The translations under genes were made by a program, and so were the position numbers. The notes below the pieces were generated by a model. The model made no database searches and was not told the origin of the DNA. It was given only the letters and a program-made list of their open reading frames with translations. A DNA stretch of 64,000 bases from Malus domestica. Lineage: Eukaryota > Streptophyta > Magnoliopsida > Rosales > Rosaceae. The DNA lies in contig NC_091673.1 of NCBI RefSeq assembly GCF_042453785.1, positions 1,185,501-1,249,500 of the forward strand, written 5' to 3'. Below, piece after piece: positions 3,800 to 64,000 of this stretch (positions are counted from its first letter, which is position 1; every line of letters starts with the position of its first letter).

Positions 3800-5249
3800 C
3801 TCCGTCCATCCAAGGGCTTGTTTTTTTTTTTTTTTCTTTTTTGGGTGAACTCTAAAGGCTTGTTTGGCTGCATGCAAAACCTCAAAGAACCACCCTAATT
3901 CCTACATGATTAACTTGACGCTTGGCAGGACTAATTGGTTAATCCTACATATGGTGCAAGTCGGCAATGGCTTTTGGGCAGGTTGGTGAAAGTGAAAGTA
4001 AAAGATTTATACTGCCTAAACAATATCATGATATGGAGTTTAATTTTGTGCCTAATTAGTAAAACCAAGACTTGACATGTCTCTTACTTGGCTTGGGAAA
4101 ATGTCTAATTAGACCTAACTATGCTTATTCCATTCATTGAAACTTCTCGTACCAGACAAGACGAGAACATAAAATCAGATGTTATGTTGTTTGAGCTATT
4201 ATATAAGTAGTAGTTTACACATTTTACGAACTACTGACGTGAGTTAGATACAAAAAAAATCATATATAAGATGATATTTCGTTGAATGATCATTATCATG
4301 AAAATAATAACTTATATAACTTGAATAAAGATGAACACAAGTTTAATGTTGTTTGCAGTGTTTTTCAGGAAATTCAAGTTCTTTCATATTCTTTATTTAT
4401 CATGTGACAAAGACATGTCTACAAGTAATAATGTTAATTTTCTACTCCTTAGTACAATAATTGTATCCAATATTCTTTTTATCAATAATTAATTGTATCC
4501 ATTAGTAACAATAAATCAATTCATATCTATGCAATTTAAGTGCTATGCACATGAAATGAGTTGTTGTTTGTTTAAGAGTCAAACAAATACACACCGATTC
4601 AGAATATTCACTTGGACATCCGGATCAAGACGTGCTGGCCTTCAAGTTTAGGTATTAACAATCACATCTTAATTCAGATGTCCAAAAACACATTACAGAT
4701 CGAAATGTGTCAAAGATTAAAGCTCCAACAGAGCCAACGTCCAAAGATCAATGCTCCGATATCACTTAATTTATAGCTTTTTGGTTTATTTCTCAAATTT
4801 TGACAATGACACTCCCTCCCTTCAATTTGCAAATCATTTTATTAACTAATTTTATGTTTCTGGTCCCGTTAGACACTGCACCCGTGATATTCGTATCTTA
4901 TGTGCATTATTTGTTTCCTTATGACCCATGAGACTGTTAGAATTTGGATTGATGCAAACGGCTCATAACATCTCCCATCCATTTGTTCAAAAAGAGGTTT
5001 ACGGTACAAAATCTTTATATGCATGCCCTACATATGTTTCAAAAAATCGAGTGTGCCTCATCTTGGCAGTATGCAACGATACGTTTTTGAGTGTGGCGAT
5101 CATATTATCATGTAATGTCATTAAATTATGATTTATAACAAAGGTTAATAAAGATAGTACATAACATGTAGGCATGTATAAATACACATGTACAATATGA
5201 GTGAAATCATAACACTATATGATATTGAGATAACCGTACTAAAACATAA
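3800..5249. other. Gene-free stretch
   Basis: AT-rich sequence with T and A homopolymers (for example 3820-3840). I see no coding region, RNA gene or bounded repeat. ORFs of 62-67 codons at 4.9-5.2 kb overlap on opposite strands and show no family features. Confidence 0.4.
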
Positions 5250-5409
5250 GAGCTCATTTGGAAGTGCTCTTAAAATGATTGAAAGCGCTTTTGGTGAAAA
5301 TATTATTGAAATCAATCCTTAGTAAAAACGGAAATGAATTGTAGAAAAGCACTTGAAACAAAAAAATATTTTCTTTAAAAGCATTTTTAATCATTCCAAA
5401 CAAACTCTA
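5250..5409. repeat. MITE copy, GAGCTCRTTTGGA family
   Basis: Starts GAGCTCATTTGGAAGTGCTC and ends CATTCCAAACAAACTCT, with internal GAAAGCGCTTTTGGTG and AAAAGCACTTGAAAC. Shorter (about 160 bp) than the 2.05-kb copy because the centre is reduced. Confidence 0.75.
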
Positions 5410-6348: not shown

Positions 6349-6552
6349 GAATTCGTTTAGACGTGCTTTTAAAATAATTGAAAGTATTTTTAAAGAAAAT
6401 ATTTTTTTGTTTCACAAGTATTTTAAGTGTTTTTGCAAGAAGCACTTTAAATGCTTTTCTAAATTTAGTTATATTTTTAATAAGAATTAGTTTAAAAAAT
6501 ATTTTTATCAAAAATATTTTCAACAATTTTAAAAACACATTCAAACGAGGTT
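6349..6552. repeat. MITE copy about 0.4 kb upstream of MAP70
   Basis: Ends ATTCGTTTAGACGTGCTTTT and AAACACATTCAAACGAG, with the family's internal AAGCACTTTAAATGCTTTTC. It lies about 420-620 bp before the MAP70 start codon and may sit within or next to the promoter; an effect on expression is only a possibility. Confidence 0.75.
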
Positions 6553-11756: not shown

Positions 11757-14679
11757 ATGTCATCGGAATCGTCAACTACGGCGGCGGCGGCGGCGCCCGA
11801 GTCACGTGCGCCGCTTCTTCTCCCCCGCCAGGGGAGCAACGGCCGGGACTCGTCCGACCTCGGCTCCCCGACCGCCCGGACCGGCACGCTGGCGATGCTG
11901 CTGGGACGGGCCACCGGGCGCAGGGGGGCGTCGATGCTGGTGCGGGAGACGGCGGCGCGGGAGCTGGACGAGCGGCGAGCCGACTGGGGGTACTCGAAGC
12001 CGGTGGTGGCTCTGGACATGATGTGGAACACGGCGTTCGTGGTGGTGTCGGTGGTGATGCTGATATGGACGGAGGACGAGCGCCCGAACACGCCGATCCG
12101 GCTGTGGATCTACGGGTATGCGCTCCAGTGTTTTGCACACGTGGTGCTGGTGTGGGTGGAGTACCGGAGGAGGAATAATATTGCTTGGAGGCTTAGTAGG
12201 AGAAACCAGGAGGCCCAGCAGGAGGAGCACCAGGTGGATATCGATGCTGTCGATACCGACGATGAAGAAGCAGCTAGGGAATTGGCGACTTCCACTCGCT
12301 CCAGGTACATATTATTTTCCATTTTTAGTAACTACTTTTTTAAGAATTCATGGAGTTCAATTTGGACAGTAGAAAGCAGTTTGACTAGTAATCTTTGATT
12401 AATGGGCTGCTCTTTCACAAGATTATGTATTACATAGGAGATTAGTGGATATTTAGAGTACTTTATTTCCATTTGTTTGAAGAAATGGGATTGAAACTTG
12501 ACCCAAAAGAAAGAAGAAGAAATTTGAATAGCTCCTTAAACTGGAAACGGGAGTCGAACTAGATTAGTGCAAGAAAGTCCCGTAATCCAATTATTTGTAT
12601 CATTCTATGTCGCCCGACTTAGTATCTTTACTGCATAGCTCAATATGGAACATTGACATCGTTCGCGTGTCTTAGAATTTGGTAGTTTTAAGGAATGGCA
12701 GTGTGAAACCGTGTGGACATGATAGTTATGATTCTAACATTACTCGTATCTTCACAGCTACCATTCACTTTTTTCCCTTACATATGGCAGCTACCATGGC
12801 TATCTCTGTGTTTGTTGTGAAAACCCAACTTCACTCGACCATCAAGGCTTTAATCTTTACATTATTCACATTTTTTGTGATCTAGTTTTCATATAGTTTG
12901 GGGATGATGCAAGCAAAATATGTATCCTTGTTCAATTGACCAAGGTGTTATGAAAACTTGCTATAGCATTTCCAGGCTTTAGCCGTATTTGCAGTTAGAG
13001 TTTTCATCATGTGCTGTCTTAATACTGTGCTGGAAAGGTTTATAAATTACTGACTGACTCTGTTTTATATGGCCTAGTGTCTCTAAACGACTTGAAACGA
13101 TGAATACAATGGCATCATTTCTCTGGTGGATAGTTGGCTTCTATTGGGTAGTTTCTGGGGGTGAAGTTCTTCTGCAAAATGCTCCGCGTTTGTACTGGTA
13201 TTTCTATAATCAATCTATCAAGACTTGTTCCTTGATCTGAAAATATAGGCATCACGTGTGTTTGGCTGTTTATGGAGATATTGAGCTCGTTTGGATGTGC
13301 TTTTAAAATGACTGAAAGTGTTTTTAGAGAAAATATTTTTGAGTTCCAGAAGCACTTTAAGTGCTTTCTACAAGAAGCACCACTTATATTCTTCTTCCAG
13401 GAAGCACTTTAAGTGTTTTTTTCATGATTTATTAGCATTTTTATTAAAGATTGTTTCCAAAAAGATTTTCACCAAAAGCGCTTTGAGTCATTTTAAAAGC
13501 ACATCCAAACGAACTCGTTCTTTCTTTCCCTTTTTATGACTTAGTAATTTTATTTGTTTCAACAAATTGTACATTAGGAATTTTATTAGTTTCACCATAG
13601 GGTAGTTATGACATTATAATGTTAGTGATGAATACAGAAGCTGGGGGAAGGCAGATCACGTTCAAAACCTTGCTTTTGAGTACTATAATGACCGGTAGCT
13701 TTAACACAAGTCACCCTGAGCTGTGCATGATAACTCAATACATATTTTGTAACTGCTAGAATAAAAGAAAAATATCTGATTCCGAATTTGTGCAGGTTGG
13801 CTGTGGTTTTTCTGGCATTTGATGTCTTCTTTGCCATCTTTTGTGTTGTCCTGGCATGTTTGATTGGAGTTGCTCTTTGTTGCTGTTTGCCATGCATCAT
13901 TGCAATTCTTTACACCGTTGCAGGACAGGTATGAAGAGAGAACCTATAACTATGATTCAACGTTTTCTTAACAAATGATGGAGTTGTCACTGCTTATTCT
14001 TGGCTGTTTTTTTTTGGGTGTGACAATGTAGGAAGGTGCATCCGAAGCAGATCTCACTATTCTGCCAAAATACTGGTTTCGAGCGAACAGTGAGGAAAAA
14101 CCTAGTGTTGGAGCAGGGAAAATGATTCCGGCAGAAACAAGCAGCGGGTACCTAGCAGTTGAGCGTGTTCTTTTACCTGAGGATGCGGTATGTTATGGCA
14201 TGTGATCATGCATTGCAATTACGTTTCAGTATATTAATGAAAAAATCCATTTGCCCTACTAGAAAATGAATAATACTTGCATTCCCCCTTTTGGCGAATG
14301 AGCTCATTCTCCCACTTGCAATAACGTATTTTCATCATACAAATATCATAATCGAAAACATTAAATGTCTCAATTTTCATCTGAAGATAATCCTTCCAAA
14401 ACATCATTCAGTCAGATACATGTCTGCATATACGTCTTATTGCATTTGCAACATTTTAATTTCTGACGGATTTTTATGCTTTAAAGATTTATGGTCGTTC
14501 GGTTTTATTCCTTTCAGGAATGTTGTATATGTCTCAGCCCGTATGAGGATGGGGCAGAGCTTCATACGCTTCCCTGTAATCATCATTTCCACGCTACGTG
14601 CATTGTGAAATGGCTTAAAATGAATGCAACATGTCCTCTCTGCAAGTACAACATTCTCAAGGGAAATGATCCGGTTTAA
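11757..14679 (+). CDS. Membrane-anchored RING-H2 E3 ubiquitin ligase, At1g12760/At1g63170-like, 5 exons
   Basis: Exons: 11757-12304, 13078-13197, 13796-13928, 14032-14187, 14518-14679; 1119 nt, 372 aa, frame conserved at each GT-AG junction. The protein has an Ala/Arg-rich soluble head, two hydrophobic segments in exon 1 (around [20 protein letters not shown] and [20 protein letters not shown]), one in exon 2 ([16 protein letters not shown]), a long one in exon 3 rich in Cys, then a C-terminal RING-H2 finger (residues about 321-360): [13 protein letters not shown] and CPLC supply the eight zinc ligands in C3-H2-C3 order. RING-H2 proteins recruit E2 enzymes for ubiquitin transfer; substrate is unknown. 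Exon 1 is strikingly GC-rich. Intron 2 holds a 236-bp MITE. The gene converges on LPXC. Confidence 0.95.
13283..13518. repeat. MITE copy inside RING-gene intron 2
   Basis: Full-length family member bounded by GAGCTCGTTTGGATGTGC and GCACATCCAAACGAACTC, with AAGCACTTTAAGTGCTTTC in the centre. Lies wholly within the 598-bp intron, so it does not disturb coding sequence. Confidence 0.85.
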
Positions 14680-15222: not shown

Positions 15223-17380
15223 TTATATAGTTCCCGACAGCCGGCGAACTAAATCGGAATGCAGTGCATGGCCACCCTGCGTGACATGCCACGAAACAAA
15301 CAAAGGAATTGATTGAATATCCCATAACCATTTTATCCCAAGCACTGCGTGGACATAAAAACGAGCCAGACTTATGGAATCCGCACAACGAATACCTTGT
15401 ATGCCACTATATGTGCCACTGGAAGCCCTTGGCTTCCAAACCTTGCGAAAAGGGAAAGGTCGCCGATAAGATCTAAGACCTTGTGTCGACAAGGTTCATC
15501 TGGAAAACGCAGCGGTGGGTTCAACCAACCCTTACTAGCACTGCATGAGGAAAACAGGATGAAGTTTCAGTGGGGAAAACAAGTAAGAACCGAGAGATTC
15601 TTCGAACTTTATACCATTTTCTGCCTGAACTCGTTGCTTAACGTGTATAAAATCAAATCCAACCGGAAACTCTCGTGTCAGTTCAGGTCAATCCATATTT
15701 GATCACCCATGTCACCCCCTATCGAGTTCAAATCAACATAAATCCGAGCATCTTACCTGCAAACAATTGCGTTTTCTAACCCACCACCTTTTATGAGTCC
15801 TGCCTCGCGCATTCGCTCCACCTGTTAGAACACGGATTCAAGCATTAACGTAATAACTTGAACAATACATTACTAATCTAAAACCAAAAACAGAGTAATG
15901 GCAAGACTACTGATGGAGAACAATTCAGTACCGACCTCCTCGTAAATGCAAAAGGTTCTTGACAAAGCAATCTGCTTGGAATAGAAAGAGTTATCCAAGG
16001 AGGTGACAGAAAACCACTGGCAGCCAATAGCATCCACCTACAGGAAGTGTCAAACAAGTAACCCGAAAATCAGCCCACAAATTCCCACATTTGGACAAAG
16101 AAGTTGAAGAAAAACAAAATAATGTGTAGATATTTGATAGCCATTCCTCTCATTAACTAACCAATCTCTTTCAATTGATGATGATTAAAAAGAATAACTA
16201 TTTGCTTCACATTCCAATTCCATGCTGTTAGTACAGACAGTTTTCAATCCGGGAAAATGTGTACCTGCGGAAAGTCAATCCCGTAAGTGATACGGATTTC
16301 TGGTGATGGGAAAGCAGCTACAAAAGAATTATTCCTCCAGACATGAACTGGCTCGTTCATATGTGCCGCCATCTTTTCACAACAGTTGCCATGCTCATCT
16401 GTTGCCTCTTTTAGACCAACTTGTTTTATAGCCTCCACCCATTCTCTTGCTGACCCATCAAAAATAGGAACCTGCACGACTTGATTTTGAGCATGATCAT
16501 TTCTCCTATGTCATCTTCGATAACCAGTAAGGATAGCGATTTTGACACTCCTTTTTCAACCATCTACACTCTAAGCTGAATATTTTACAATTCTTCTGCA
16601 TTAACACGAGGAGTGCTAAGGGAGGAGTGTCCCCGTTTGCATTTGGGAATGCTTCTGAAAGGGCTAAGAGTACTTTGACAACCAAAAGCACTTCTGAGTT
16701 CCGACTAAGTTTGAATTTCCGGTCAAGCACTTGGAAGTCTTTTAGAAGCAATTCCAATCGAGTCCAAAAGCTTTAAACCATCAGTAATTCTTCATGTTCT
16801 AAATTATGATTGCCTCAAATTACTTGGAAGTGGCAATTACACAGTTCAAGTTCCCAAAAAAACCTACCCAAGTCCTCATACAAATCGAAAAAATTCACAA
16901 CTTTATGGTACCAACCTCAACATCGATATCTTCGGGGTCCGAGTTCTTGACCTCAATCCGGCAATTGTCAACCTCCATAGCTTCCAAAGCCGAAAGCAAA
17001 TGCTCAACTGTCCGAATTTTGACCCCATCTTTACAGAGAGTGGTGCAGAGAGGCGATTCCTCGGCAAACTCAACCGAAGCTCGAATCGCATTTGACCGGC
17101 AAACAAAGTATCTCCCTTTGCCGGCGTGATCCGGCCACAATTTCACGGCGGAGACCTTGCCGCTGTGCAAGCTCTTCCCTTTCCGCTCTATGCATCCCGC
17201 TAAGGTCTGCTGAAGCCTACCGGTCTGTAATCAAATAAGAAAAAAACACACTCAGACACATTTTCCCGCGATTTTTCCGCTTGGTTGCTGAGAAAATGCA
17301 TTCAGAGAGAGAAATTATACAGATTTCCAGAAGATGGATTTGGAGGACTTGAATGCGTTGAAGGCACTGGAGAGTGTCAT
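15223..17380 (-). CDS. LPXC: LPXC: UDP-3-O-acyl-N-acetylglucosamine deacetylase, 7 exons
   Basis: Minus-strand exons in transcript order: 17380-17321, 17224-16916, 16471-16265, 16037-15936, 15821-15757, 15540-15396, 15276-15223; 942 nt, 313 aa. LpxC is the zinc-dependent deacetylase of the lipid A pathway; plants keep a nuclear-coded, mitochondrion-targeted version making lipid-A-like precursors. Visible landmarks: LHSG motif (about residue 39); the first zinc ligand His in VEHLL (about 95); His and Asp ligands in [11 protein letters not shown] (about 267 and 271); the late active-site His in GGHALHSDL (about 299). The hydrophobic, Ser/Lys-rich first 20 residues fit a short mitochondrial presequence. 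The chosen ATG is the first in frame. Intron 2 contains a decayed MITE-like segment. It lies head-to-head with NUP155, separated by a Pack-MULE-like element. Confidence 0.96.
16625..16765. repeat. Decayed MITE-like segment in LPXC intron 2
   Basis: CCCCGTTTGCATTTGGGAAT at one end and AATTCCAATCGAGTCC at the other, with GAAAGGGCTAAGAG, AAAAGCACTTCTG and CAAGCACTTGGAAG between. The plan resembles the GAGCTCGTTTGGA family but identity is low, so it may be a related family. Confidence 0.4.
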
Positions 17381-18003
17381 AGCTTGCTGGATTGACGGCG
17401 AGTGTCGAAACGCCGTCGTCTCGCGCCTTAAACTAGGGATTTCGCGGTGGATCTTTGGCGGGACTGTGTGCGAGCTAGGGCTTTCTACTGGTTTTGCCCG
17501 ACTGACTGGAGACTAAATTTTGGGTTCCAATTTTTAGGCTTTCAAAAAAATAATTGTTAATGGCATTTTAAAAGTTTACTTTTTATCTTAAATTTTTTAT
17601 AACTCAAAAAATTAATAAGGATGTAAAATGAGATTTTTGAATTGTTAATAACAATTTTTTATAAAAAAATAAAAGAAAATTGGAGTTTATTTGTTTATTT
17701 TGTGACAGGATAATAAAAGCATCTCAAATTGCAGTTTTATTTAATTAATTCTGTTATTTAAGGAAAAATATGTTATTTTTTGTGACAGGATGTTTAAACT
17801 TCAGATGCAGGACAATTCGCCATCTACAAATGTTAAGGAATAAAAGATGAAGGCAAATTTCTATAAACATAATAGTCCAACTTGAGTTTACGGATTTCCA
17901 AAATATTATTAAGGTCTAACTCAATTGAGGTTTTTTGTTTTTGAAATATAATAGCTTCCTTAATTTTTGTAATTTGTGAGAATCAATTCAAATATGGTAA
18001 ACA
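17381..18003. other. LPXC upstream region
   Basis: GC-rich first 130 bp (probable LPXC promoter/5' UTR), then AT-rich sequence. The words TTTTGTGACAGGAT occur twice (17698 and 17779 areas), a small duplication. No other gene or bounded repeat. Confidence 0.4.
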
Positions 18004-18012
18004 AATTTTTTT
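18004..18012. repeat. 9-bp target-site duplication, left copy (AATTTTTTT)
   Basis: Identical to 19422-19430 and directly abuts the first base of the inverted arms of the 18013-19421 element. Low complexity weakens the evidence, but the position is exact on both sides. Confidence 0.7.
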
Positions 18013-19421
18013 GGGTTAATCTCTGTTTACTAACCTGAAGTTTCGTGGTTTTCAACATTTGGTACATGAAGTTTTTTTCATCCCAGAGTTATACCTCAAG
18101 TCTTAATTTTGGGACAGTTTCGTACATTCCGTTAGTTTTTCTGTTAACTGATGACGTGACGCTCACGTGGGCAATGACTTGGCGCCACGTGGATATTAAA
18201 AAAATTAAAAATAATAAAATAACAACAAATTAAATTTAAAAAAAAAAAACTCCATCTCTCTCTTTCTTCCCCCTCTTCGCCCTCTCTACCAAACCCTAAC
18301 CCTAAATTCCAACCTCCCACACTTCCTGCAATCAACCCTCATCGCCAGCCACACTCCAATCCAACCCCCATTGCCTTCTTCTTCAATCATCGTCGCTATC
18401 CCCGTGACCGCGACTGCAACTGAATTGCTCCCGACGTAAAACCACCGATCGTGATCGTATTTTGACATCGTCCTCACCAGATTCTCCACGAAGAACACCG
18501 TGTCATCGTCACCAAACACGAACCACCTCACATTCGGCTCGCCGCGATCGACGACCTCCTTGACCATGCATGCCACGCGGATCGCGGAACGGCGCCCTCC
18601 ATTGAAAGTGTACGGAAAACAGGAGGTATCACCGGAGACGACGACAGGAGCGATGGACTTCTCGCCGGAGGAGTCGATTGGTGCACGATCAAGAAACGCG
18701 AAGGCGTGGATGGAGGCGGGGGAGCACCAGAGGCGGAGGTATGGCTCGCGGCGGGACCAGGAGCGGGAGGAGGACGTGACGGCGAAGACGAGGTGGCTGC
18801 GTGTGGTGGGGGAGGAAGTGTAGCGAGAGAGAAGGGCTGGCAGCGTGTGGAGGAAGAGGAAGTAGAGGTTGAGGAAAACAGAGAGGAATAACATGAGGGC
18901 TTTGAAGTGGGCGAGGGTTAAGGTTCTGGGCATTACAGACAGGAAGGGGAAAGAGATATCGGTATCGAATTGCTTTGCCGGCGGGGTTGGTTTTTCGTTT
19001 GATTTTCTGGTACATTTAAAAAGTTACAGCGAAGATGATGAACTAGTTGCAGTCGAAGGCGATGGGGTTGGATTTGAGGGTGGCTGGCTATGAGGGTTGA
19101 TTGCAGGAAGTGTGGGAGGTTGGAATTTGGGGGTTAGGGTTTGGTTGAGAGGGCGAAGATAGGGAAGAAAGAGGGAGAGAGGGTGTTTTTTTTTAAATTT
19201 TAAATTTTGTTATTTTATTATTTTTAATATCCACGTGGCACCCAGTCATTGTCCACGTGGGTGCCACATCATCAGTTGACAGAAAAACTAACGGAAAACT
19301 TAACAAATGTACGAAACTGTCCCAAAATTAAGACTTGATGTATGACTCTGGGATGAAAAAAACTTCATGTACCAAATGTTGAAAACCACGAAACTTTAGG
19401 GTAGTAAACAGAGATTAACCC
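18013..19421. mobile_element. Pack-MULE-like element with long inverted arms and captured gene fragment
   Basis: 1409 bp. The ends are inverted repeats: left GGGTTAATCTCTGTTTAC, right its exact complement, and the arms align for about 365 bp (18013-18377 against 19053-19421) with small differences, sharing words such as CAACATTTGGTACATGAAG, TTTTGGGACAGTTTCGTACA and CCTCCCACACTTCCTGCAAT. A 9-bp direct duplication flanks it. Nine-base duplications plus long terminal inverted repeats are the hallmark of Mutator-like elements. The centre is not transposase but a host-gene fragment, so this fits a Pack-MULE. It sits between the divergent LPXC and NUP155 genes. CACGTG-type G-box words near both arms could carry regulatory activity, which is conjecture. 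Confidence 0.88.
18395..18933 (-). pseudogene. Captured fragment of a DUF604 (fringe-related) glycosyltransferase
   Basis: The minus-strand frame (start 18933) encodes a hydrophobic stretch followed by VFAVTSSSRSW, VVVSGDTSCF, then RWFVFGDDDTVFFVENLV and YDHDRWFYVGSNS. These are landmarks of the plant DUF604/galactosyltransferase-like family, including the Asp-rich sugar-nucleotide motif. Homology stops at about 18395, where the frame reads into the inverted arm and gains an unrelated tail, so the catalytic domain is truncated. It represents roughly the first 180 codons of the source gene and appears intron-free in this part. Expression is unknown; product function is unlikely without the rest of the domain. 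Confidence 0.8.
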
Positions 19422-19430
19422 AATTTTTTT
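19422..19430. repeat. 9-bp target-site duplication, right copy (AATTTTTTT)
   Basis: Matches 18004-18012 exactly and directly follows the final C of the right inverted arm. Confidence 0.7.
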
Positions 19431-20012
19431 ATTTGACAATCTTAATAAACTTACCTGATTCTACATTTAAAATTGACGTAAAAGAGGAATGTTTAAGCTC
19501 AAAACATTATAAGAGAAATATGCCCAGATTAAATTCCTCTCACTATTTGGTTTACAATTTCCCAATCAAGCAAGGGCTCTTTTGATGCTAGGATAAATAC
19601 ACTCACTAACAATCCAAGGTATATGCTATTACTTTGAGCAAGAAAAACAAAATAATAACAAAATTAAAACGAACGAAGGAAAAAAAAGAAAAAAAGAAGG
19701 AAGAATCAAAATTTAGGCGCTCCGGTGAACCGAGCCGTTCAGCGAACCGGACCCTCCGGGTTATCCCCAAAGCACCTTTTAATTTGCCCGCCACAAACAA
19801 AACCCTCCCCAAAACCCTAATTTACGAATCTCCCCCACTTCCCTACTCTCTCAGTCGTAGCCGTGTGAAAATTTGCTCTCCAATCCAAAGACTTTCCCTG
19901 TTTGGTTCCCGAGAAAGGGAGGGAAAACCGACTCAAGATTTCAGTTTTACACCCCGAAGGGCTTCAATTTTTTTCAATTTTGCCCGTTCGGAGTTCTAGG
20001 GTTTTGAACGCC
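19431..20012. promoter_or_regulatory. NUP155 upstream region and 5' UTR
   Basis: About 580 bp between the Pack-MULE and the NUP155 ATG. AT-rich to 19690, then rich in C and purines (AAAACCCTAA, CCCTACTCTCTCAG), typical of plant housekeeping leaders. No TATA element is obvious. The exact start site cannot be read. Confidence 0.4.
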
Positions 20013-23000
20013 ATGTCCTGGGAGGACGAAGTCGTTATGCGTGATGTCACCCATGCGGGTATCGTCGTCGGCGACCGCATTGGCCGTGAAGTCGCGTCGC
20101 AGCTCGATCTTGAAGAAGCCCTAGAAGCGTCCCGATACGTTAGTCACCCCTATTCTACTCATCCCAGAGAGGTAATTTCCGTAATTTATGCGAATTAAAA
20201 GCTTTGATTTTTGTTGTAAAAGTTTGATATTTAGGGCTCAGATTGCAATGTGTTAATTTTGGGCTCATTGTTTCTCTCTTGTAAGATTTCTGGCTTTGTT
20301 ATTCGATCTTTGAGAAGTATATATTCACAAGTATAATTTCATTCCAATCATTGTTAGTATAACCTTCTTGAACTGGATCATTGTTCTTGAACTGAAGTAT
20401 CGGCATTTACCGGTGTACTGGGTAAATGATAGGACTTCATGAATTTGTTGTATTTCCTTGGTTTTTCAGCACTACCGCACTGGTGGATCACTAAGTATAT
20501 TATTTAGGCAATGTGTGTGAGAGTTGCGTAGCACATATGGTATTTATCATGTGTGCCATTTTAGTTGGCAATCTTCTGACAGTCAATGGGTATCGTTCTT
20601 TCTAAATGACTTGATCTCAACATTAGTAATGTATTATATTATTTCTAATAAATTAATTATGATAAAATTCATTTTTGATGTGTTATTTACACTTGTTTTC
20701 TGCTCATAAGTAGTGCCATATTTCATGTTATTGTTTAACAATCTGATATTACAGTGGGATCATATTTTTGTTTAGATTGTATGACTTGAATTCAGTTCTG
20801 TTCTCTAAAGCTTTACAATGATGTTTATTCCATTGCAGTGGCCACCTTTGGTTGAGGTGGTGGATACTTGGGAGTTGCCTCTCGTACTTATTGAAAGATA
20901 CAATGCAGCTGGTGGGGAAGGAAATTCATTATGTGGGATTTTTCCCGAGATTCGTAGGGCATGGGCATCAGTAGATAACTCCTTGTTTCTCTGGCGTTTC
21001 GACAAGTGGTGAGTATATAGTCATAAGATGATAATACTACTAATAGAAAACCTATGAAAATAAATAATTTCAAGATGCGGATATCATAACTAGTACCATA
21101 CTTGTAGCTTTTTGACCACTGGTCCATGGGTTTCATCTCCACGCTTTCGATTAAATCCCTCTGACATTCTCTATTTATCAGGGATGGACAATGTCCAGAA
21201 TATAGCGGGGAGGATCAAGCTATTTGTGCTGTTGGCCTTGCTAAATCTAAACCTGGTGTTTTCATTGAAGCTATTCAGTATCTTTTGATTTTGGCAACCC
21301 CTGTTGAGGTATGTTGGTTATTATCTCCTTTGTTTATGTCTATATCCCCATGGGTACAATTCTGACAATTGAAAACAAAATTTCCAGGCATTGCCTGGTT
21401 GATCCCACATAGATTGTGGTGTTAAGATTAATTGCTGCTTTAGAATTATTTTTCATTTTTTTACCTTTTTCCTGTGAAGTTAGTGATGACTGCTTAAAGT
21501 TGTGACCAGTGGGTATACATTGCTCTTAATCATACTTGGATATTTTTATAAGTTGGATTAAGACACTTATTTTATCTAAACTAAGGATAGAGTTTTCCCT
21601 AAGCAAGTTGGTGCCCGCAGTTCGAGTCTTGGAAAAAACTATCTGGAGACGGGTATGGCTTGGTAGAAGCCTCCAGTATTGGTCTGCCTTTCTCTTTAGA
21701 AGATATTTAACTTGAGAATTGAATATTCAGTCATAATTAGTTGCAATTTTTTTAATTTTCTGTATTTGACTTTGTTGACTTTTGTTTAAGCTGTATCTTC
21801 TGTTTGATACTTGCCATAAGGGTTTCTTTTAATTTGTTTGCAGCGTAGAACTTTTAACAATTTCTAGTTGAAGTTTGTAGTTTTCCTTAATGGTCTCTGT
21901 CTTTTATCAGTTAAGTCTTGTAGGTGTATGTTGCTCTGGAGGGGCTGGTGGCACAGATCCTTATGCAGAGGTCTCACTACAGCCATTGCCAGAGTATACA
22001 GTACCATCTGACGGAATCACAATGACATGTATCACGTGTACTGACAAGGGTCGTATTTTCCTTGCTGGGCGTGATGGCCACATTTATGAGCTACATTATA
22101 CGACTGGATCAGGCTGGCAAAAGCGTTGTCGGAAAGTTTGTCTGACTGCTGGTATAGGAAGTGTTATTTCAAGGTTGGTTGGACTATCTTATTTTTTCCT
22201 TCTTTGCTCTCTTCAAAGTTGTAATTATTCTGGTGGTTTTTCCAATTGGTGGGTTTTCCAATTTCCACCTAAAAGTTTGAAGTTGGATATTCTTTTTCTT
22301 AGATAACATATTCACATGACATGTTTTGTTTCGTTTGTTTTCAGATGGGTAGTACCTAATGTTTTTAAGTTTGGAGCTGTTGACCCCATTGTTGAAATGG
22401 TTTTTGATAATGAAAGGCATATCCTGTATGCACGGACTGAAGAAATGAAACTTCAGGTGTATATTGTGGGGCAAAATGCTGATGGGCCATTGAAGAAAGT
22501 GGCAGAAGAAAGGAATCTGATAAATCAGAGGGATCATTATGGGGGTAGACAATCAACTGGACCTAGAGGTCCAAATCGATTGCCAAAGTCATCAATAGTC
22601 TGCATATCACCATTGTCTACACTGGAATCCAAGTCTCTACACCTTGTTGCTGTTTTGTCAGATGGCAGAAGGATGTATCTTACCACTTCTCCTTCTAGTG
22701 GAAATCTAGGTGGGTTCAATACAAACCATTATAAACCTACCTGTTTAAAAGTTGTGACAACAAGGCCTTCTCCTCCACTAGGGGTCAGTGGTGGACTTGC
22801 CTTTGGAAGCGTGTCTCTTGCGGGTAGGTCTCAGAATGATGATCTCTCCCTAAAGGTTGAGGCAGGACATTATTCTGCTGGAACTCTTGTCCTTTCTGAT
22901 TCATCTCCAGCAACCACAACTTCTCTTCTTATTGTGAGCCGTGATTCAACAGCACAATCAACTGGGTTAAGTACTTCAGGGATAAGTTCCAGGAGTTCTC

Positions 23001-31400: not shown

Positions 31401-34400
31401 ACTTCTCGAGTTCTGTGTACTTCAAGTTGATTGTTTCTTACCTGTCTTCCCATAATGTTTAATCAGGGGAGGAGGTACCACAACTGGGTTAATAGTGTTA
31501 GGCAATTTCTCTAAATTCTGATTTTAGTTAGTGTGGGCAATGTTTATTTGTCATATCATGGGTTACTGTTTGTCTGGGCCTGTATTTTTTTGTTACAAAG
31601 ATTTGATTTTAAAATTTACTTTGAACAGGTTCTAACTTTTCTGAACGAAATATTTGACACCCTTTTGGGAGCACTCTCAGATGCATCTGATCAGGTAATC
31701 CTTTTATTCTCATGAATATTTTTCTCTTTTTGTTTCAAGTTGTATTTTATAATCTTTCTTTAGTTGTCATTTTCATTTATGGTGTTATTGTCGACTCCCA
31801 CTGTTTATGTGGTATCTGTATTTTCACACTTATTGTGTTCCACATATAAGTCGTATGGATCTGTTGTTAACTATTAATTAAGGGGTCATTTGATAACATT
31901 TCATTTTTCAGTTTTCAATTTTTTGAAAACTGAAATCTTGTTAGGTAACTGCTTTCAGTTTTCAAAAAACTGAAAACTAGTTTCTCTAGTTTTCAAAATT
32001 TGGCCTTGAGTTTTCACCTTTTGGAAAACTGAAAGTAGTTACCAAACAAGATTTCAGTTTTCAGAAAACTGAAAACCAAAAACTGAAAACGAAATGGTTA
32101 TCAAATGGCCCCTAAGGTTGTCATGCACTAATGTTGCTACTTTCGTCTATTATAACTCTCTGTGATTTGCCAGGATCATCTGCTGACTTATGTATATTAT
32201 ACTTTTCGTTCTTAGTTACGTACTTTTCCAGAGGCATTTTTAACTTTGTAATAAGACGTTATCGAGTTATCATGTGATCTTTTATTTAGTATGCCAGAAT
32301 GCAGCTTATTTATTGCTTTATGGTGTCCAGAAACATGCATAATGAAAAAGCTAACTGACCCTACATGTTGAACGGCATTTATGAGTGTATATAATGTTGC
32401 AAGTCTGGATTATGTCCAGGTGGTTCTCTTGGTCCTAGAAGTTCATGCATGCATAGCAAAAGATCCACAGCACTTTCGCCAGCTTGTTGTGTTCCTTGTG
32501 CATAATTTTCGTGTGGACAACTCTCTTCTAGAGAAGTGAGTCTCTCCCTCTCACTCTCCCCTCCCTCCTTGTGCTTTAGCTAATTTTAAATCTGTGATAA
32601 TATGTTTCTTGTTTTAACTATGGTCTTTATGTTTTTTTTTTCCCCAAGACGTGGTGCGTTGATTATTCGCCGACTTTGTGTGCTTTTAGATGCTGAAAGG
32701 GTCTACCGAGAACTGTCTACCATACTAGAAGGAGAGTCAGACCTGGATTTTGCATCTATTATGGTTCAGGTTGTTATTTATCACACTACATAAAATAATG
32801 CGTGCATGAGTGACACAAATGAAGCAACAGTCGCATGGGGCATGATAAATGAGCTCTACATTCTAGTGCCCAGAATTAAAACGTTTTATCAGGACTGAGG
32901 CGTTTAAAAAGGGTGCTGTTATTGGCACTCCAAAAACCTCTTGCACTCCAAACTTCTATGTTTAGAACGAAAAATACACTTGATGGAGTGCACGACGAGT
33001 TTTTTGGAGTGCCAATAACATCACCCTTTCAAAATACCAATTTAATTGTATGCTTGTGTTCTTTATTCAAGAGTTCTTCTGTGTTCTGTGTAGCCTAATC
33101 TTTTTTATCCCTTTGTTCCTTTTCCTTGTTCAGGCTTTGAACTTGATTTTACTTACATCCTCCGAGTTGGCTGAGCTTCGAGATCTTTTGAAAAGGTCAC
33201 TTGTGAATCCTTCTGGGAAAGACTTATTTGTTTCCTTATATGCTTCATGGTGCCATTCACCCATGGCAATTATAAGCCTCTGCTTATTAGCTCAGGTGAG
33301 GTTCTAGAGCTTTGTCACCCATGGTCGCCCTTTCACTTAAAAATCTGTGTTTGCGTGTGAGCATTTGTTTTCTTTTCTTGAACATGTTGTGTATGTTTTT
33401 TCATGACAGACATATCAGCATGCAAGTACTGTGATTCAGTCTCTGGTTGAAGAAGATATTAATGTCAAGTTTTTGGTCCAGCTGGATAAATTGATTCGGT
33501 TACTAGAAACTCCAATCTTTGCGTATCTTAGATTACAGGTGCTGTATTGAAATGTATTTCTCCTTTTAGTATTGGAGTCCTACTATAGCATCCTTATCAT
33601 GTTTTCCCCTAAACTGTCATTTTGTGTTTTCTGCCTTGCTTTCTCAAACTGGCAAATTAGTTTGAGTGCCTGAGATCGTATTTTGATTCTTGCAGCTTCT
33701 TGAACCTGGAAGACATATATGGTTGTTAAAAGCCTTATATGGTCTTCTGATGTTGCTTCCTCAGGTATAAACTAAATGCTCTTTTTATACTATTTGAGGA
33801 TGAATTTTGCTGTGAGATTGCGTGCATAAATCATTGAGATCAAAATCTATCTGAGTTTTTGGAAACTCCTTCAATATGTTCTTTGCAAGAGTTTTTGTTT
33901 TTGTGATTGGTAATTTTGTGTGTTTAAGTTTCGTTTCATGCTTGATTGCAGCAAAGTGCCGCCTTTAAAATTCTGAGGACGCGTTTAAAAACTGTACCTT
34001 CATACTCATTCGACAGTGAGCAACTCAGAAGAACTTCTTCAGGGAATCCCCATCAGATTCTACATCACATGCCAAGTGCCAGTAGTTCGCAGATCATTGA
34101 AGACGGTGACATAAACCAGGCCAGTAAGAGTTCTCATAATGGAATTAACTTTACTTTAAGACTACGGCAGTTTGAGCAAATGCAGCAGCAACATCGTCAA
34201 AATGCAAAGCTGCAGGCACAAACACAAAGAACTTCCACAGCTTCTTCAACACCGAAGGTTTGTTGAGTTTCTTCCATCTGGGGAATATTTATGTTGAGAT
34301 AAGTAGCGTTTCGACGAGTGTTGTTGGCAAATGTTTATTTTGGGGCAGTATTGGCAGGCAGGATTCGTCATGTGCCTGTTGCAAACATCTTTGACAGTCC

Positions 34401-35283: not shown

Positions 35284-35448
35284 TAGATTCGTTTGAAAGT
35301 GTTTTGTAAGTGCTTTTGGTGAAATTCATTTAAAGAAACACTTAAATGCTTTTCTAGAATTCTTTGAATTTTTACTAATGATTGGTTTCAAAAATATTTT
35401 CACAAAAAGCGTTTCAGTCGTTTGAAAAACACTTCAATATGAGCTCAT
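35284..35448. repeat. MITE copy, GAGCTCGTTTGGA family, diverged
   Basis: ATTCGTTTGAAAGTGTTTTG at one end, AAACACTTCAATATGAGCTC at the other, with GCTTTTGGTGAAA and CACAAAAAGCGTTTCAG inside. About 165 bp, older than the 13.3-kb copy. Confidence 0.65.
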
Positions 35449-35499
35449 AATGTCTTCAAAATGTGCAAGATGAGTTTTAACAAATTTGTGATGGAAAAA

Positions 35500-51811: not shown

Positions 51812-52130
51812 TGGCTCATGTTGACGTGTTTTTTAAATTACTGAAAGTACTTTTGATGAGAACAAATTTTTAGTATAAATACAAGTGAATTCTAGAAAAG
51901 CACTTGAAGTGCTTCTTGCAAGAAGAACATGAGCTCGTTTGGGAAGTGTTTTTAAATAAATGAAAACTTTTTTAGAGAAAATATTTTTGAAACCAATCAT
52001 TAGTAAAAATGGAAGTTAATCTTGGAAAACTACTTGAATTGCTTCCTGCAAAAAGCACTTCAAGTGCTTTTGGAAAAAAATAATTTAACCAAAAATATTT
52101 TCAGTCATTTTAAAAGCAGTTCAAAACAAG
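51812..52130. repeat. Two adjacent GAGCTCGTTTGGA-family MITEs, the first truncated
   Basis: A left-half copy (GGCTCATGTTGACGTGTTTT through CACTTGAAGTGCTTCTTGC, to about 51928) ends exactly where a second, fuller copy begins (GAGCTCGTTTGGGAAGTG, 51931) and runs to AAAGCAGTTCAAAACAAGC (about 52130). The order suggests one inserted into the other, with the remaining half lost or unrecognisable. Confidence 0.65.
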
Positions 52131-62047: not shown

Positions 62048-64000
62048 ATGGCATCCTTCATCTCCAAGCTTTCCAGGGAATGTGACCAACATCAGAAGAT
62101 CCTTGATCGGAGCTCGATCAAGACCATCCGGTTTGAAAACGACATGAACACCCAGTACCAAATCCTGGGTCCTCTCTTCAAGGCTACAATACCGCCGACT
62201 ATCATCGGCCTTCTACAGGAGCACTGCCTAAAACCCTTGCTTCAAGGGTTTGAATGGTCGCGATGGGATGCGGCTAAACCCCAGGGCTCCTGGCCCTCGA
62301 CGACCACATCCTGGGCAGCCTGGGTCGTTCGAATGGAACGACTCTTCGGCGAGCAATGGAAGGCCCTTGGCATCTACGACGCCATCCTCCTTTCGTCCAT
62401 GGAAATCGTCCCCGACAAGGAACTTCTCCAAGCCGCTCTGTGCTTCTGGTGCTCGGCCACCAACACAATGGTCCTCCCTCTGGGTCCCATTGGTCCCACC
62501 ATCCTGGATATTACTGCCATTCTGGGGACTTCGGCGACCGGGATCCCTGTCGACGCGACCCTCTCTGGGCATCCGTCGAATATCGACCTGAAAACGCTCT
62601 TCGACCGTCGGGCCTTCGAGACCTTGAGCCGTGACGGTCATATCCCGTCGAAGGAAGATATTCAGAAGCTCCACAAGAACTTCTGTAATTACAACACCCT
62701 CTATCTTCACTTCGCCGGCCGAGGAGAAGAGGACCTGCGAGAGGGAGAACATGAAGCCTTCCTCTTCTACTGGTACAACAAATACATTTGTTGTACCAAG
62801 TTAAACAAGTGTTTGGTCGAGAACATGCCGGTAGCCGAAGCCCTGGCTAGTGGTCACGTCTTGGCGCTGAGTTCCAACATTCTCGCCCAACTTTTCCGCT
62901 GCCTGGCCGAGGCGACCCTCCAAAAGGTCGACCCGCACCAGAATGGTCCTCTCTGGGTCTTCCAACTCTGGTTGCAGGTATACTTCGCCTCCCTTCGGCC
63001 GGCCATAGCCGAATTCTCACCAACAGAGGCGCTTGGGTCTCAACTGGCCTCTCGACCGACACCTCCCCATCAAGCCGAAGAGGTATTTCGGTACCTCTTC
63101 GCTCTCGACGACTTCTCCAACGACGAGTTCCTAATATGTCGTCGTCGAAACTATCCTTCCTCCATCAGGCTGCCTATCTCCCCATGGAGCGCGGAGGAGG
63201 ACGCCGATCTCCGTCAGACCTGGGGGTCGTTTGTGCTTGCCCGCGACCTCCCTCTCGGCTGCGATGGGAAACGGTCAGGATGGGAAGTATATCATCCGAA
63301 CTTCCTCGCCCGACAACTCGGCTACCTTCAAGGCTGCCCTATCCCCCTTCTCTCCTCCCGAACGGTCCTAAGCCGTGGACGCGAACCTCGTTCCTCTGAG
63401 AAGGAATGTAGAACCGCCGTGAAGGAGTTCCAAGAGCGCTGCCAAAAATTCCGCCTTCGACCAGCCACCCCGGAAACCCAATGCACCGACACCTTTGGTG
63501 AGTGGTGGGAGAAATACACCCAGGAATTCTTTGGTGCGCCGGTCGAAGACGTGCTTAGCAGACTCTTCAGTGACCGGCCTAAGAAGGCCTCGACCCCTCA
63601 TCCTCAAGGTACCGGTTTCATTTTCTTCCTTTCCATCAACCTTGCATATTGAGTTGCCTTACTGAATTGTCTATCTTTTTAAGTAGTCGGCCTTTGAGAA
63701 AGACGGAGGCAGTTGCCGCTGCCACGACCGGGAAAAAATCGGTCGTGGCCCAAAAGGACAAACCCGCTGGTAGGGCCGTATTGATCAAATGGCCTCGCCA
63801 AGAGGCCGAGCCGGCTGTCGAGCCTTCCCCGCCAGCCAAGCGGGTCAAACAAATGGCGAAGAAGGGTGCCCGGGAGATCCACGTTATCTCCAATCACACG
63901 ACAACTCCCAGTGCTTCTTCTCCCGCCGCCGGCCATTCTGGGGTCGAGAAACAACCGGCCTCGGCCGCAGAGACGACCCCAGCGCGGCCTGCCTCTGTGG
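62048..64000 (+). CDS. Transposon-associated plant mobile domain (PMD, aminotransferase-like) protein, partial
   Basis: A 534-codon open frame from ATG 62048; the coding exon probably ends at about 63608 (CTCAAG before GTACCG). PMD landmarks: WAAWVVRMERLFGEQWKALG, a hydrophobic PLGPIGPTILDITAILG segment, EAFLFYWYNKYICC, and a late FGEWWEKYTQEFFG. PMD proteins are a plant family carried widely by MULE and LTR elements and related to host MAIN-type silencing factors. Downstream, from about 63690, a Lys/Ala/Pro-rich frame (KKSVVAQKDKPAG, WPRQEAEPAVEPSPPAKRVK) stays open to the window end and is probably the next exon, though its phase does not match the simplest acceptors (TAG at 63684-63686). 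GC content is far above the neighbours. The frame shows no stop, so this is a young element copy. Confidence 0.82.

Follow-up and report, generated by a model that had tools for sequence, protein, structure and literature searches.

The window analyzed here, a stretch of 64,000 bp (C13:1185501-1249500), carries between LPXC and NUP155 what is, with very high confidence, a non-autonomous, long-TIR Mutator-like element (MULE) holding a piece of a DUF604/Fringe-like donor gene now on C9, and represented at at least nine loci of the same genome. The element spans positions 18013-19421 (1409 bp) and has defined boundaries, an identified donor, sibling copies and target-site duplications. A fully bounded Pack-MULE is found in one genome together with its donor, a likely homeolog of the latter and graded sibling copies, making capture, spread and decay readable in a single family, with an unusually readable series of junctions. 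With the same confidence, the element is read as having captured the 5'UTR and the first 171 codons of the glycosyltransferase gene now on C9 and as having spread by transposition to at least nine loci, one of them the interval separating LPXC from NUP155, where it produced a 9-bp target duplication; it was probably mobilized by a MULE transposase whose gene lies at another place in the genome.

The 9-bp duplication that the original prediction placed at both edges of the element was recovered as an exact repeat (Table 1). The flanks are AT-rich, and 9/9 identity was observed in three of 186,592 left/right 9-mer pairs from the local flanks, which sets the chance level. The outermost 18 bp (GGGTTAATCTCTGTTTAC) are exact at positions 18013-18030 (+) and 19404-19421 (-), and no further such termini were found in the window at up to three mismatches (0.03 expected). 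Alignment of the two arms gave 346 identical columns out of 372, with nine gaps, and a score of 554, where none of 200 shuffles exceeded 41.5. Arms of roughly 365 bp with exact outer ends had been proposed: the exact ends stand, while the length is refined to approximately 360 bp for the transposon's own part. The alignment itself extends inward to about 18397 on the left and 19028 on the right, and donor-derived sequence occupies the inner left segment (18374-18422) and, on the right, begins at 19061 going inward. GC content was 58% in the captured coding part (75% at third positions) and 40% in the arms. The window gave no Rfam or tRNA matches, and exact end and arm patterns had none in viral and prokaryote contigs, two sets in which plants are not expected.

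Table 1. Positions in the window of the parts of the element, of motifs within it and of a short repeat family.
Feature	Position	Strand	Basis or remark
Left 9-bp target-site duplication, AATTTTTTT	18004-18012	.	Identical to right copy
Left terminal inverted repeat, transposon's own part	18013-18373	+	Arm alignment; recurs in other genomic copies
CACGTG sites, left arm	18164, 18186		Motif scan
Open frame, 215 codons: 171 donor codons (18421-18933), then continuing into left arm	18286-18933	-	
AAACCCTAA, left arm	18291		Motif scan
Donor 5'-end piece, about 49 bp, inverted relative to main capture, at its 3' junction	18374-18422	+	44/49 to L012:4513->4465
Segment captured from donor: 5'UTR, then codons 1-171 counted from MPRTL start	18422-19061	-	blastn to C9/C17 genes
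GDDDTVFF motif	18490-18513	-	Counted within ORF 18286-18933
Right terminal inverted repeat	19062-19421	-	Arm alignment; genomic copies
AAACCCTAA, right arm	19134	-	Motif scan
CACGTG sites, right arm	19232, 19254		Motif scan
Right 9-bp target-site duplication, AATTTTTTT	19422-19430	.	Identical to left copy
GAGCTCGTTTGGATGTGCTTTT-like repeats	2047-2282, 5241-5351, 6353-6549, 13278-13516, 35335-35450, 51929-52127		

The longest open frame of the element (215 aa) contains, as predicted for the captured piece, GDDDTVFF, which we take to be a glycosyltransferase motif. The frame matched the Fringe family (PF02434; E 3.4e-8, 33.6 bits, cut-off 21) over profile positions 3-133 of 250 only, and the sole other Pfam family listed for the fragment, DUF2826 (E 0.19), remained under its cut-off. 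Its description as a DUF604 glycosyltransferase fragment proved correct for the donor gene, which matches the DUF604 profile PF04646, but not for the fragment itself, which gave no match to that profile and matched PF02434 alone, because the capture (ending in ...VGSNS, 171 codons in) stops some five residues short of the DUF604 match; the DUF604 domain lies in the uncaptured part of the donor. A PDB search gave one weak glucosyltransferase match (E 9.2e-4) and one at chance level (E 0.57). No transposase was found inside the element, where neither of two further ORFs scanned gave a family match at E 0.01. Transcription from the right arm would read the captured piece in sense; an antisense transcript would arise only from the left arm.

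The parent DUF604 gene whose existence had been anticipated was located on C9 (L012:3835-4476), with 91.1% identity to the captured piece by blastn and 91.4% in the multiple alignment (640 columns) without gap columns. The corresponding values for a gene on C17 (L013:3800-4446) were 84.3% and 85.4%, and the two genes were 90.2% alike across the captured region. The first open exon of the C9 gene matched PF02434 (E 3e-15) as well as the initial portion of DUF604 (PF04646, E 6.9e-31), the remainder of which was matched by another open exon farther on (PF04646, E 5.4e-64); in the C17 gene the first exon is open and similar to that of C9, and the later exon matched PF04646 (E 4.5e-63). Judged by their open frames, both DUF604/Fringe-like genes are apparently intact, and the C17 gene is likely the homeolog of the C9 donor. 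The Ka/Ks ratio between them was 0.17, and therefore both look functional. In the literature, a single table line labels an Arabidopsis protein fringe-like (DUF604).

The window copy and the C9 gene differed by a Ks of 0.187, the C9 and C17 genes by one of 0.332. Taken without an outgroup, these values and the identities suggest that the capture was made from the C9 lineage after the C9/C17 split. In the unrooted tree the C9 and C17 genes stood together apart from the elements (94/96), no branch being strongly supported, and the C9 branch was very short (0.016) and the C17 branch long (0.11); capture before the split would also be compatible with this tree. A related MULE with ends GGGCAAAAGATTGTTTAC (arms 339/365) is situated upstream of the C9 donor gene, at L012:4672-6074, and no arms of this type were found in the 9-kb region around the C17 gene. 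A simple end bypass from this MULE is not favored, because its end differs and it starts about 160 bp past the capture edge of the window copy.

A search for the arms in the window's own genome (651 Mb, 19 contigs) gave at least 115 matches, an arm found on both strands counting twice and scoring being limited to the top 40 candidates. Twenty regions were fetched, so that 21 loci, the window included, were scanned for ends. Paired termini were present at 15 of these 21 loci, 11 with exact 9-bp duplications, in agreement with the prediction of other copies sharing ends and duplications, three with 8/9 identity (L023, L026 and L028) and one, L020, without a duplication, which was also absent from two additional end pairings at L011. 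These ends and duplications recur and are therefore those of a mobile family. The six loci without paired termini were the donor genes L012 and L013 and the damaged copies L014, L015, L017 and L018. The target duplications were AT-rich, and two sequences occurred at two loci each (L010/L022 and L016/L021).

The DUF604-derived piece was found at no fewer than nine loci (window, L009, L010, L011, L014, L015, L016, L017 and L018), L009 being nearest to the window element (96.9%). The same fragment is flanked in L009, L010, L011 and L016 by an exact 9-bp duplication that differs from one copy to the next. The L010 member (C12, 2607-6427) is flanked by an exact 9-bp duplication and contains the DUF604 piece; of its 3.8 kb, about 2.4 kb is other sequence lying within one arm. 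Ten members without the DUF604 piece were fetched (L019-L028), and three ORFs from two of them were scanned, giving hits to other genes, namely PPR repeats in L020 and a Ppx-GppA piece in L023, while one L020 ORF had no family match. The MULE-transposase family PF10551 had at least 151 matches in the genome; no autonomous element with the present ends was identified among the matches listed, which, compared by eye with the TIR copies listed, were all more than 50 kb from any of these, the nearest lying about 56 kb away on C15.

The junctions retain traces of how the capture may have been built. The inverted piece at the 3' junction of the window copy aligned to the 5' end of the C9 donor with a score of 73, against a maximum of 26 in 300 shuffles, and an inverted donor 5' piece of about 50 bp was present in 7/7 copies examined at this junction (window, L009, L010, L011, L014, L016 and L018; L015 and L017 left out). 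On the 5' side, a shorter arm is joined directly in L016 and L017 to donor sequence that extends to L012:4541; the inverted piece ends at 4513-4519, so that the donor junction of these two copies lies 22-28 bp farther upstream. A longer inner arm was found on this side in L011, the window copy, L009, L010 and L015, the last four being without a further stretch of about 30 bp present in L011. The state of L016 and L017 is taken as the older one, because lost donor sequence is not easily regained. A fold-back template switch during capture would have placed the donor 5' end at one junction in inverted orientation. Arm-to-arm conversion, anchored in this inverted donor piece, may later have absorbed donor DNA and lengthened the TIR in several copies. 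We put forward this series of steps tentatively, as one possible course that falls short of an even chance, and its template-switch part leans mainly on L016 and L017.

According to the available extracts of PMC3310237, acquired sequence may form part of extended TIRs, and the mechanism by which MULEs acquire sequence was, as of 2012, yet to be understood. The same situation is met here: in the window copy, L009, L010 and L011 the arms include captured donor DNA. Unlike the cases in those extracts of PMC3310237, the L016/L017 junction type is preserved alongside, and the arm holds its donor piece in the orientation opposite to the main capture. If true, the step series bears on the open question of sequence acquisition, and the junction series constitutes a concrete, testable clue to the capture of host DNA by MULEs.

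The predicted position between LPXC and NUP155 was confirmed through the Pfam families of the neighboring exons, the gene names following the earlier sequence-only reading: exons on the minus strand matched LpxC (PF03331, E 9.8e-23 and 2.6e-13), and those on the plus strand a nucleoporin, Nup133-N-terminal-like family (PF08801, E 4.1e-24 and 5.6e-7). The element is upstream of both starts, read from the frames at 17380 for LPXC (about 630 bp from the element) and 20013 for NUP155 (about 590 bp). Neither an empty site nor a collinear second locus was found, the NUP155 homeolog on C16 aligning only from window position 19744 onward, and an LPXC-side query (16898-18003) retrieved from the genome only itself and a repeat in its flank.

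This placement raises the question of whether the insertion alters the regulation of LPXC or NUP155, via promoter-like motifs or spreading methylation. Both the short distance to the two starts and the presence in each arm of two CACGTG and one AAACCCTAA (which we take to be a G-box and a telo-box, respectively) would be in line with such an effect; however, CACGTG is found elsewhere in the window too (28 records, of which 8 in the element correspond to four sites, the palindrome being counted on both strands), and we consider altered regulation possible but unlikely. At the same locus, part of NUP155 exon 1 (window 20006-20144) is carried by a second, different Pack-MULE-like family with ends GGGTAAATTACATTTTA, 0.75-0.96 kb in length and present at seven other loci (L046-L052). 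Its duplications of 9-10 bp were exact at 5/7 loci (with ends shiftable by 1), 8/9 at L046 and not found at L047. The locus therefore hosts one Pack-MULE and has donated to another.

The copies of the element bear a mutation footprint. Over sites identical in the C9 and C17 genes, the copies had 148 distinct C>T/G>A column changes vs. nine T>C/A>G, and 56 transversions, while the C17 gene, polarized by C9 and the element majority, had 17 C>T/G>A vs. 15 reverse changes (Fisher p 5e-8). The window copy alone showed 27 vs. 3 (p 0.002). The C9 gene had nine private changes, four of them C>T/G>A and none reverse, which are too few to judge and compatible with general GC-to-AT drift. Pooled element rates decreased from CG (0.172) to CHG (0.106) and CHH (0.074), in copies that share ancestry and are not independent, compared with 0.050, 0.017 and 0.057, respectively, in the C17 gene; L015 (119 bp) was excluded from this context count and included in the 148. 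The CG-first order points to cytosine methylation, and from this footprint the copies have probably been methylated at cytosines, although part of the excess could stem from selection on the genes and from GC-biased conversion ceasing once the piece had left its GC-rich gene. The usual state of a copy would then be that of a silenced element, not a gene, and the inverted arms could form double-stranded RNA; folding predictions for the minus-strand RNA give a long hairpin in which they are paired.

A hairpin of this kind, if transcribed, might also act in trans, with small RNAs from the element's transcripts silencing the DUF604 genes on C9 and C17. Apart from the predicted hairpin and the methylation footprint of the copies, this possibility is favored by the matches of captured-piece 21-mers to the C9 gene, 94/620 being perfect and 470/620 having up to two mismatches. 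Perfect matches to the C17 gene were only 34/620, though, and the Ka/Ks of 0.17 is that of two genes that look functional, leaving silencing in trans possible but unlikely.

The 215-codon frame might represent a domesticated chimeric gene for a membrane-anchored, truncated Fringe-like protein, driven from the right arm and kept by selection: the window copy has an open frame and an unaltered GDDDTVFF, its private changes are five synonymous to one nonsynonymous (P 0.0095-0.057, depending on the mutation model), and in neutral simulations such a frame stays open with a probability of 0.006-0.05, or 0.23 at half rates. These simulations, however, presume a capture as old as the divergence of the arms, and the Fringe match is partial. 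Moreover, the sister copy L009 is likewise open, yet has three synonymous to seven nonsynonymous private changes and a motif altered from GDDD to GDND, with loss of the second D. The frame contains stops in L010, L011, L014 and L017, with frame-shifting deletions in addition in L010 and L014 and loss of the start codon in L011; L016 and L018 are open across the 105 and 86 codons that they keep, and L015 is without the coding part. Ka/Ks to the donor was 0.32 for the window copy and 0.48, 0.39, 0.33 and 0.46 for the stop-bearing L010, L011, L014 and L017, respectively. Since ratios in stop-bearing copies are similar, the value of the window copy is no sign of selection, and a domesticated gene on Ka/Ks grounds was rejected. 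From the sequences compared, a coding role for the frame appears not to be supported and domestication is very improbable; in annotation, the open frame should not be named a glycosyltransferase gene.

The idea of an ordinary processed or segmental pseudogene with chance flanking repeats, to which the intronless captured piece and the several broken copies might lend themselves, has a negligible probability given how these ends, arms and 9-bp duplications reappear at other loci of the genome, and no splicing is implied because the first open exon of the donor alone covers the captured piece.

The exact 9-bp duplication of the element falls within the 9-11 bp given as a MULE criterion in PMC3310237, and its long arms (346/372 columns) agree with the TIRs of typically 100-500 bp, at least 80% alike under the search criteria, described there. 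As in a Pack-MULE, a cellular gene fragment is carried without a transposase and copies occupy different target sites. The closest likeness is to Pack-MULEs of rice, tomato and Arabidopsis, for instance the tomato PM-ZIBP family (PMC3310237), which is also a non-autonomous MULE with long TIRs, a 9-bp AT-rich duplication, a cellular gene fragment and several copies. The PM-ZIBP rows available give 944-1372 bp and an outer TIR identity of 87-95%, against 1409 bp and 93% here (PMC3310237); the present element differs in TIR family and donor, and its TIRs are single, not tandem. Animal Pack-TIRs, for which the portion available of PMC8277862 offers gap-filling and FoSTeST models, share the multicopy element and template-switch-like junctions, whereas the family described here is a plant MULE. 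Pack-CACTA and other Pack-TYPE elements are likewise TIR elements with coding DNA (PMC8903248). The present one has a 9-bp duplication and long TIRs, unlike the duplication lengths and ends of the other superfamilies. The element thus belongs to a known kind, as a small family in this genome, and the inverted donor 5' piece is a new detail. Among the best matches of the literature search no work combined Pack-MULE with DUF604, the matches listed for the end and arm strings included no MULE-titled work, and in the available parts of the Rosaceae literature on Mutator-like elements and Pack-MULEs the latter are merely cited.

Other repeats and one further mobile-element-related frame were observed in the window. 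A short repeat family, several copies of which start like GAGCTCGTTTGGATGTGCTTTT, occurs at six places (Table 1) and is probably a MITE. A near-palindromic repeat of 190 bp, foldback/MITE-like, was found at positions 31899-32088, and a 534-codon open frame at 62048-63652 matched the plant mobile domain (PF10536, E 1.4e-38).
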